Assembly (NCBI RefSeq): GCF_001747085.1
Contig: NZ_MDJD01000034.1
Span: forward strand, 124,001 to 188,000
From: Flavivirga aquatica
GTDB taxonomy: Bacteria; Bacteroidota; Bacteroidia; Flavobacteriales; Flavobacteriaceae
DNA: 64,000 nucleotides
Direction of reading: 5' to 3'
Shown: positions 42,401-43,708 of the stretch, piece by piece
Layout: every line of letters starts with the position of its first letter
Position numbering within the stretch: the first letter of the stretch is position 1
Made by a program: the position numbers and the translations under genes
Notes under the pieces: generated by a model
Database searches by the model: none
Told to the model about the DNA's origin: nothing
The model's input: the letters and a program-made list of their open reading frames with translations, nothing else

Positions 42401-43708
42401 ATGTTAAAGTATTCAAATATTAATAGGTTTTCGGGAGCTAAAACGACCCGAAAAAGTACACAAACACCAAGAAGAAAACGAAATACAATTTCTTTAGGAG
42501 AATCTGCTCAAAATTGGACGAACTCTTTTAATTATTTAGAGCCAGAAATTATTGAGCCTAAAATGAAATATAGTGAACAACATACATTGGAAGATGGTCG
42601 TGTGGTATGGAATGGAGCAACTCAAGAACAGCTAAATTTTATGCAAACGGTTTATGATATAAATTATACCCGTTATTCTCGTAGAGGTACACCGTATCCA
42701 GAACTTTCTAGCAATGAGTTAGAAACAGTACTAGGGAATTATAAATTGAGAAAAGAAGCTTCGCCAAAGTTTAAAGCACTTTTAGAAGCTGCCAAAACAG
42801 CAATAAACAAAGCTGGTGTTGATGTGAAAATAGCACTAAATAGTGCTTATAGGTCACCTACACATCAATTTAATTTGTGGATGGATTATTTCCCTAATTA
42901 CTATAATGAAACACAAGATCATCGTGCATCTTTAGAAGGTGGGCAACATGGAGATAAAGCAGCACAATATTTAGCAAAATATGTAAGATCTAGAATTTCT
43001 ACACCAGGATTTAGTAATCATAATAATGGACTTGCTATTGATATTAGAAATACAGAAAAAGGAGAATATATAAAAAATAAAACGAAAGCTATATGGATTG
43101 AGAAATGGAAATCTAGTTGGCTTTGGACTTGGTTAGTTGCAAATGCTAATACCTATAATTTTTATCAAGAAACAAGTATTAACGAACCTTGGCATTGGGT
43201 TTTTAGGCAAGATGCTAATCATTTAACGTCGTCGCAAAGTAAGTATGGTAGAGCGTTAGATAAAAGGGTGTTAAAACTTAAGGAGCGTGTGCCAAATATG
43301 AAAGAATATGATGTTGTTGGCAGAATATCGGGAAAAATATTAAGAGGCACTCCTGAGTTTGATGAGCTTATTAAAAATGAAAATCAGAAAATTGTTTTTA
43401 AAGATGAAGAAGGTACAGGAGCAGATCATTATATGACCAGTAAACTAAGTGAAAAATTAAACCTGCTAGCAGATCTTGTTATTCAAGAATGGGGAGCAAA
43501 TATTAAACTTCGAGTAACGGAAGCTTGGGATGAAGATAATGAGCATGCCTCTAAAAGCATACATTATGAAGGACGTGGAGCAGATATAACAACAAGTGAT
43601 AGAGATAGTTCAAAATTAGGAAGATTAGCACGATTAGCGGTAGAAGTAGGTCTCGATTGGGTGTTTTATGAAGACAATAGCCATGTACATGTGTCTATGA
43701 AAAAGTAG
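42401..43708 (+). CDS. VanY-type D,D-carboxypeptidase fused to a Hedgehog N-terminal signalling domain
   Basis: A 435-residue protein with two zinc-peptidase domains of the DD-peptidase fold. Residues 1-60 are basic and unstructured. Residues 110-270 are VanY-like (M15): SAYRS, SNHNNGLAID with His207 and Asp214, and EPWHW with Glu262 and His265. Residues 296-435 match animal Hedgehog HhN throughout: calcium ligands Glu336, Glu337, Asp342, Glu374, Asp377 and Asp379; zinc ligands His388, Asp395 and His430; catalytic Glu424 and His382. Spacing from Glu374 to His430 equals that of mouse Shh Glu127 to His183 exactly. No signal peptide and no Hog autoprocessing domain. It ends the cluster and probably cleaves peptidoglycan peptides; the Hedgehog comparison is from memory. 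Confidence 0.92.
   Translation: MLKYSNINRFSGAKTTRKSTQTPRRKRNTISLGESAQNWTNSFNYLEPEIIEPKMKYSEQHTLEDGRVVWNGATQEQLNFMQTVYDINYTRYSRRGTPYPELSSNELETVLGNYKLRKEASPKFKALLEAAKTAINKAGVDVKIALNSAYRSPTHQFNLWMDYFPNYYNETQDHRASLEGGQHGDKAAQYLAKYVRSRISTPGFSNHNNGLAIDIRNTEKGEYIKNKTKAIWIEKWKSSWLWTWLVANANTYNFYQETSINEPWHWVFRQDANHLTSSQSKYGRALDKRVLKLKERVPNMKEYDVVGRISGKILRGTPEFDELIKNENQKIVFKDEEGTGADHYMTSKLSEKLNLLADLVIQEWGANIKLRVTEAWDEDNEHASKSIHYEGRGADITTSDRDSSKLGRLARLAVEVGLDWVFYEDNSHVHVSMKK

Follow-up and report, generated by a model that had tools for sequence, protein, structure and literature searches.

A VanY-Hedgehog two-domain protein encoded at the putative cargo end of a conserved Bacteroidota gene cluster

Bacterial proteins with a domain resembling the N-terminal signalling domain of Hedgehog (HhN) were brought together as the bacHh class, then about a dozen proteins more than 50% identical to Sonic hedgehog (Shh) and of unknown function in 2018, and a gene transfer into a cnidarian ancestor was proposed for Hedgehog (Roelink 2018, PMC6027127). 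The rhizobial bacHh genes have lysozyme, amidase and M23 genes as neighbours, a role in feeding or scavenging was suggested for them, and a chimera of Shh with a Bradyrhizobium domain failed to enter the matrix (Jagers and Roelink 2021, PMC8052667). Two other components of the Hedgehog pathway, Hint and SuFu, have been traced to bacterial toxin systems (PMC12419801, PMC3482391), and a VanY-related toxin domain is named in one of these articles (PMC12419801). These statements refer to the accessible parts of the articles cited; the accessible text of the open-licence literature searched gave no description of HhN as a delivered cargo or of an HhN-VanY fusion.

In this work, we analyzed an HhN protein of Flavivirga aquatica, P0001, together with its gene neighbourhood. 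The window, that is, the whole stretch of DNA analyzed, comprises 64,000 nucleotides (contig NZ_MDJD01000034.1, positions 124,001 to 188,000 of the forward strand), and all coordinates given below are counted from its first letter. The protein and its parts are the following:

42401-43708, + strand: VanY-Hedgehog two-domain protein P0001, 435 aa (open reading frame, Pfam)
42401-42460, + strand: N-terminal cargo-like signature of P0001 (MLKYSNINRFSGAKTTRKST), proposed address tag (pattern count)
42743-43207, + strand: VanY (M15B-type) domain, residues 115-269 (Pfam, 51.1 bits, cut-off 25)
43262-43705, + strand: HhN domain, residues 288-435 (Pfam, PDB Shh match, residue check)

The reading frame runs through its 435 codons without an internal stop. 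The original prediction of a complete HhN domain in a bacterium, fused to VanY, was confirmed: (i) the HH_signal profile (PF01085) matched residues 288-432 over profile positions 16-161 of 161 (E 7.7e-53, 178.9 bits against a cut-off of 22.1), (ii) a sequence search of the PDB returned 25 distinct Hedgehog chain sequences, annotated as Sonic, Indian, Desert or "Protein hedgehog" (best E 2e-46, about residues 291-434), and (iii) the VanY domain exceeded its own Pfam cut-off. Only the bounds of the predicted HhN domain, residues 296-435, had to be changed, residues 288-435 being the better choice. A place among ordinary M15 peptidases is not indicated, as Peptidase_M15_3 scored 35.8 bits vs 178.9 for HH_signal; the HhN match is far above chance and extends beyond the metal ligands. 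The alignment to vertebrate Shh comprised 84 identities in 161 positions (BLASTP), with no gap between Glu374 and His430, the segment for which a spacing equal to that of mouse Shh had been noted. The residue-by-residue check likewise located all six calcium ligands (Glu336, Glu337, Asp342, Glu374, Asp377 and Asp379), the zinc triad (His388, Asp395 and His430), the catalytic Glu424 and His382. The VanY domain contains SNHNNGLAIDI at residue 205 and EPWHW at 262, which fit SxHxxGxAxD and ExWH, patterns that we take to be the zinc motifs of VanY and M15B peptidases.

Compared with the closest described proteins, P0001 shares with the bacHhs a C-terminal HhN domain, the zinc and calcium residues and more than 50% identity to Shh, as well as wall-hydrolase neighbours of the kind found beside the rhizobial genes; it differs from them, as far as the accessible descriptions go, in having VanY in front, in lacking a strong membrane helix and in its location in a Bacteroidota cluster of core and cargo genes (PMC6027127, PMC8052667). 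Relative to the animal Hedgehogs (Shh, Ihh and Dhh), its HhN domain is 56% identical to Shh, whereas the protein has VanY instead of Hint: no Hint domain matched at E <= 1 in Pfam and the protein stops three residues past the HhN match. A signal peptide is also argued against, on hydropathy only, the best 16-residue value near the N-terminus being -0.58. As for the M15B carboxypeptidases of the VanY/LdcB kind, the VanY domain is of their family and the match of P0001 to solved DacB/LdcB structures is weak (E 0.12-0.13), but P0001 has a second peptidase domain and a cargo-type cluster setting.

How ordinary this HhN domain is was judged from a search with residues 288-435 against 5.8 billion proteins, which gave 1,323 matches at E <= 1e-5, the candidates being about 239-761 aa long. 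We examined the best 120 of these 1,323 HhN proteins, P0001 included; three carried an animal-type Hint domain, and the other 117, without it, were taken as bacterial. These 117 among the matches listed and 22 loci made up a set of 139 bacterial HhN domains, in which some proteins are counted in both parts. Within this set, itself picked by similarity, His388, Asp395, Glu424, His428 and His430 are each invariant (139/139); the position of Asp379 holds Asp in just 65 of the 139 and Asn in 60. The closeness of P0001 to Shh, which had been thought unusual, is that of an ordinary member, because its 55.9% identity to vertebrate Shh ranks 52nd among the 139 bacterial domains, whose median is 55.2%. 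The highest values belong to P0088 (62%), P0008 (61%), P0065 (60%) and P0071 (59%). The fusion to a second peptidase, likewise put forward as unusual, is indeed uncommon, yet it recurs: VanY accompanies HhN in 7 of the 117 bacterial proteins among the matches listed, alongside Amidase_3 (7), WXG100 (3), pesticin (2), GH24 (2) and Peptidase_C70 (1), and 95 of the 117 have none of these six families. Fusions to an amidase, pesticin or GH24 thus number 11 of 117. WXG100 parts are characteristic of type VII export.

HhN genes were also seen in other settings. The last gene of a contractile-injection operon of Paenibacillus xylaniclasticus encodes an HhN protein, and Pfam confirmed in this operon the sheath, tube, CIS_tube/LysM, hub, spike, PAAR, gp25, Baseplate_J and Tail_P2_I components. 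What this protein and P0001 have in common is that HhN is C-terminal to a part that varies and that the gene stands at the cargo end of its cluster; the cluster of P0001, in contrast, has no tail genes and its N-terminal signature is different. The last two genes of the Paenibacillus operon (L057/L058, G458 C6 262000-296000) share a GNxAVLKYL-type N-terminal part, the last of them having HhN. At another locus (L015), a gene combining Amidase_2 and M23 lies two genes upstream of the HhN gene. At three loci of Alphaproteobacteria (L012, L014 and L016), there is an HhN protein with N-terminal hydrophobic stretches. In the two loci that extend far enough, the next gene encodes an uncharacterised protein about 2,490 aa in length; its start is present in the third.

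Most of the functional information on P0001 is held by its gene cluster. Eleven co-directional genes (31791-43708), separated by gaps of 0-144 bp and ending with the P0001 gene, presumably form one operon. They encode, in order, a Peptidase_S8 subtilase, seven proteins without known family, a 200-aa protein, a GH24 lysozyme and the VanY-HhN protein; a gene that we presume to be comM comes after them. The loci L046 and L054-L056 named below lie in other Bacteroidota genomes.

30998-31765, + strand: AraC-type regulator, 25 bp upstream of the core (Pfam HTH_AraC, 1e-19)
31791-33086, + strand: subtilisin-like protease (Peptidase_S8), first gene of the core (Pfam, 158.2 bits)
33097-34200, + strand: cluster protein, 367 aa; matched separately in L054 and L055 and not in L046 or L056 (synteny)
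34215-35198, + strand: core protein, 327 aa, all-helical model (pLDDT 75.9), at least 55 homologues (model, homologue search)
35222-36232, + strand: core protein, 336 aa (synteny)
36251-38455, + strand: core protein, 734 aa; predicted beta-rich ends and a helical middle of low confidence (model)
38600-38878, + strand: core protein, 92 aa (synteny)
38879-39622, + strand: core protein, 247 aa, 91% identical in Flavivirga (synteny)
39630-41045, + strand: cluster protein, 471 aa, fast-evolving; L054, L055 and L056 have relatives at this place, and none was found in L046 (synteny)
41061-41663, + strand: cargo-like protein, 200 aa (MNNNRFLFLEEDLK...), Gly/Ala-rich hydrophobic stretch from about residue 38 (open reading frame, hydropathy)
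41670-42341, + strand: GH24 phage-type lysozyme, putative cargo (MSNRFHTLF...) (Pfam Phage_lysozyme, 4.6e-29)
43815-45368, + strand: comM-type Mg-chelatase gene, boundary of the cluster and outside it (Pfam, synteny)

Eight of the ten non-Hedgehog cluster genes have no Pfam family over cut-off; the 200-aa protein (41061-41663) reached no cut-off of any family, and a PG_binding_1 domain was found in the L055 relative of the 39630 protein. Structure models added little. That of the 734-aa core protein (36251) was weak (mean pLDDT 59.6), with low-scoring matches to beta-rich proteins only and a single Foldseek match at E <= 0.001 whose TM-score on the query was 0.12. The fair model of core protein 34215 had no Foldseek match at E <= 0.001, and its matches with VIA-align were helical and middling, which does not by itself prove a new fold. 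Nothing was returned by Rfam at the gathering score over positions 30000-47000, by a tRNA scan of the window or by a promoter pattern search. Between 42401 and 43815 there is no separate open reading frame of at least 80 aa that might be an immunity-like gene, which counts against a classical toxin pair. No relative was found in the IMG/VR scan, though 15 stretches there met a pattern, nor in 50,697 phage records, so a reading of P0001 as a phage gene was dropped; one plasmid record contains the HhN part only. A contractile injection system inside the cluster was rejected too, as no tail family exceeded its Pfam cut-off in the 11 genes.

Elsewhere in the window, a VgrG-like gene at 5543 (Phage_GPD and Phage_base_V), about 35 kb from the HhN gene, is followed by an open reading frame and by a gene for a 1,413-aa Rhs-repeat protein that matches Tox-ART-HYD1 at its end; these genes (5543-12894) lie on the strand of the cluster, about 19-26 kb before its start, and a short Rhs-like tail occurs at 19486. 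Positions 21487-24422 hold a group II intron-type reverse transcriptase (22700-23959; RVT_1, GIIM) flanked by the two parts of an IS1595-type transposase, which is also present uninterrupted at 45956-46891. A reverse-transcriptase frame identical to 22700-23959 is present on contig C54 of the genome (L049).

Seven other Bacteroidota genomes contain the core. In three of them the same cargo genes come after it, and in four the genes at that place are different. The former are Flavivirga algicola (L006), an uncultured Algibacter (L007) and Lacinutrix neustonica (L008), where the order is the same from 33097 to VanY-HhN and comM again comes next; the stretches compared begin past the subtilase position. 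In Lacinutrix neustonica, several cluster genes are in pieces and a comM fragment precedes the full comM, by decay or by sequencing errors. The latter, G765 (L046/L047), G1117, G1119 and G1174 (L054-L056), have the subtilase and the homologues of 34215, 35222, 36251, 38600 and 38879 in the same order; a separate relative of 33097 is present in two of them and one of 39630 in three. The cluster is rare. With the own genome counted, HhN occurs in 2 of 149 related genomes, core protein 36251 in 2 of 397 (plus one weak match) and core protein 34215 in 2 of 394 genomes of a phylum draw and 1 of 393 of an order draw; in another family of the class, 34215 occurs in 4 of 245 genomes, the centre G765 included, plus one weak match. 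G293 (E 7e-4, internal stops) and G1235 (E 4.8e-4) were not counted as carriers. Among the eight nearest HhN proteins, five (P0002, P0005, P0006, P0007 and P0008) apparently share a contig with a homologue of 34215, and P0004 is apparently the protein at L007, where the core is present. The same core thus appears to carry HhN behind different partners, since P0008, one of these five, is a pesticin-HhN protein.

The four genomes with different genes at the cargo end encode there a Peptidase_C70 protein (L056), a 1,055-aa DUF4347 protein with three small ones (L046), or proteins without Pfam family (L054 and L055). The first residues of the cargo proteins are alike (MRNRILALQQEV, MKNRLNALQKEL, MSTNRFFQLRDEL, MNNNRFLFLEEDL and MSNRFHTLF). 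Over seven loci, the pattern ^M.{0,9}NR[FLIM] was found on 15 of 17 cargo genes vs 1 of 133 other open reading frames, a count that was not blind, the pattern having been noticed first, and in which the 15 are not independent, three flavobacterial loci being orthologous. The two misses are a Flavivirga copy with SRF for NRF and one L046 cargo. The signature is also borne by the HhN proteins P0008 and P0088 (pesticin), P0017 and P0032 (GH24) and P0071 (C70). A looser form (NR or NS) occurs on 12 of the 117 bacterial HhN proteins among the matches listed and is absent from 105; P0029, which begins with a hydrophobic stretch, probably matches it by chance. As a remark made after the fact, three of the four HhN proteins closest to Shh (P0088, P0008, P0065 and P0071) have a cargo-type N-terminus. 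When the listed proteins, with HhN masked, were compared by blastp with the big neighbours and the cluster proteins, only four matches resulted: two expected ones between GH24 domains, one between P0016 and a Pseudonocardia HhN protein, and one between P0038 and the 39630 protein with filtering off. Two cargo proteins, 41061-41663 and L054 8576-9343, have a Gly/Ala-rich hydrophobic stretch after a basic N-terminus, as a membrane-inserting part might; they showed no significant similarity to each other (E 0.54).

Taken together, the domain content and the gene neighbourhood lead us, with slightly better than even confidence, to read P0001 as likely a two-headed zinc peptidase for wall peptides, probably delivered along with other cargo proteins of a conserved Bacteroidota cluster. 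Judged from its family, the GH24 lysozyme would cut glycan strands, and VanY and HhN, by sequence zinc peptidases of the M15 kind, would cut stem or cross-link peptides. The genome context suggests that the signature would address the cargo to whatever the core proteins build. P0001 would need the cluster or lysis to reach a wall, because hydropathy gives it no signal peptide, and its target would be the wall of another cell or, at release, that of the producer. HhN would then be a wall-cutting warhead that recurs, found elsewhere in fusions with pesticin, lysozyme, amidase or WXG100 parts and at the end of a contractile-injection operon.

Alternatively, lysozyme and VanY-HhN would be a self-lysis cassette: by opening the producer's own wall, they would release a large particle assembled from the core proteins, which is the part that endolysins play in phages or gene transfer agents. 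The genes of the two enzymes are indeed next to each other, the GH24 neighbour matches endolysin families (a gene-transfer-agent endolysin model among them, far below its cut-off), and the VanY part has hits to a PHROG tail family (6.4e-8) and to a family of endolysins (2.1e-4). However, the cluster has no holin-like gene, the highest 19-residue hydropathy being 1.52, and 7 of the 10 cluster proteins compared with PHROGs match none at E <= 0.01, the other three being the subtilase, the lysozyme and VanY-HhN themselves. Besides, the C70 protease and the DUF4347 protein occupy the same place elsewhere with the same kind of N-terminus, and to our knowledge neither is a lysis enzyme. We consider self-lysis unlikely.

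Our doubts are greater about a second possibility, that P0001 is carried by a contractile injection system whose genes lie elsewhere in the genome, the cluster being a module that loads its cargo. The genome of the window does have an operon with sheath, tube, gp25 and hub on contig C54, a sheath exceeds the cut-off in 5 of 8 cluster carriers, some of these genomes being drafts, and the Paenibacillus HhN gene ends an operon of this type. Sheaths are frequent anyway, with base rates of 61/148 in the family of G765 and 22/149 in that of the window, carriers included. Moreover, among the four carriers of the own family only the genome of the window has a sheath over cut-off, and the looser signature is on just three of the open reading frames listed near the carriers' sheaths.

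Still somewhat less probable in our view is an ordinary secreted or released wall hydrolase for debris feeding or remodelling, along the lines suggested by Jagers and Roelink for the rhizobial bacHhs. The lysozyme, amidase and M23 neighbourhoods described in the accessible part of that article (PMC8052667) resemble the neighbours found here, but P0001 has no signal peptide by hydropathy and its gene lies beside a conserved core with exchangeable cargo. Finally, acquisition of the P0001 Hedgehog domain from an animal, to which its identity to Shh might point, was dropped as extremely improbable, given that this identity is typical of bacterial HhN domains, that P0001 has no Hint domain and that it falls outside the animal group in the tree described next.

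A phylogeny of HhN domains was computed from 79 rows and 145 columns (LG+C20), 55 rows being drawn from the 139 bacterial domains at 74% identity and 24, at 90%, from the 120 animal-type domains among the matches listed for a second search, which counted 1,711 relatives; the tree is unrooted, its columns are few (the program gave a warning), 42 of its 76 inner branches are open and its bootstrap is unsettled. All 24 animal-type rows fall on one side of one branch (97/90), and P0001 pairs outside them with the bacterial pesticin-Hedgehog protein P0008 (99/87). Such a short alignment cannot name the bacterial sister of animal Hedgehog, because P0001 with the animals alone is borderline in the AU test (p 0.051), P0001 and P0008 with the animals are not rejected (p 0.471), and five other bacterial sets with the animals give p 0.132-0.422. 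The bacterial rows come from at least seven phyla: Bacteroidota, with P0001 and its relatives, Myxococcota, Pseudomonadota, Bacillota, Actinomycetota, Planctomycetota and Chloroflexota. Bacterial rows of so many phyla around a single animal group fit the pattern expected of a bacterial origin, in a tree whose root is not known. One metagenome protein of 257 aa, P0178, in which LDL-receptor repeats come after HhN and Hint is absent, branches at the base of the animal group; it may be a Hedgling-like protein from an early animal or a protist. The original prediction held that the domain bears on whether Hedgehog came from a wall peptidase or moved from animals to bacteria; it is informative on this question, and both the tree and the identity rank speak against the move from animals.

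What looks new here is the setting, a cluster of core and cargo genes, the class itself being known since 2018. P0001 and its setting fit the idea that Hedgehog may descend from a bacterial wall enzyme. It is tempting to go further, though we hold this to be a doubtful possibility, and to speculate that the HhN signal domain was at first a warhead in bacterial delivery systems, and that the cluster, with its subtilisin-like protease and at least five conserved core proteins, would be an undescribed Bacteroidota machine for delivery or packaging that loads any NR[FLIM]-tagged protein, HhN being one among its interchangeable wall-cutting heads. The published argument on polymorphic toxins is alike in deriving parts of the Hedgehog pathway from bacterial conflict systems and differs in that, in the accessible parts of its articles, it names Hint and SuFu and not the HhN half (PMC12419801, PMC3482391). 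Were our speculation true, bacterial conflict systems would be the source of both halves of animal Hedgehog.

The cluster merits study by itself, given how few of its genes belong to a described family. The company kept by HhN, namely wall hydrolases, exchangeable cargo, a contractile-injection operon and WXG100, leads to the testable claim that it is a peptidoglycan-cutting cargo domain. In this way HhN may complete an existing argument, the signalling half of Hedgehog coming perhaps from the same kind of source as Hint and SuFu.
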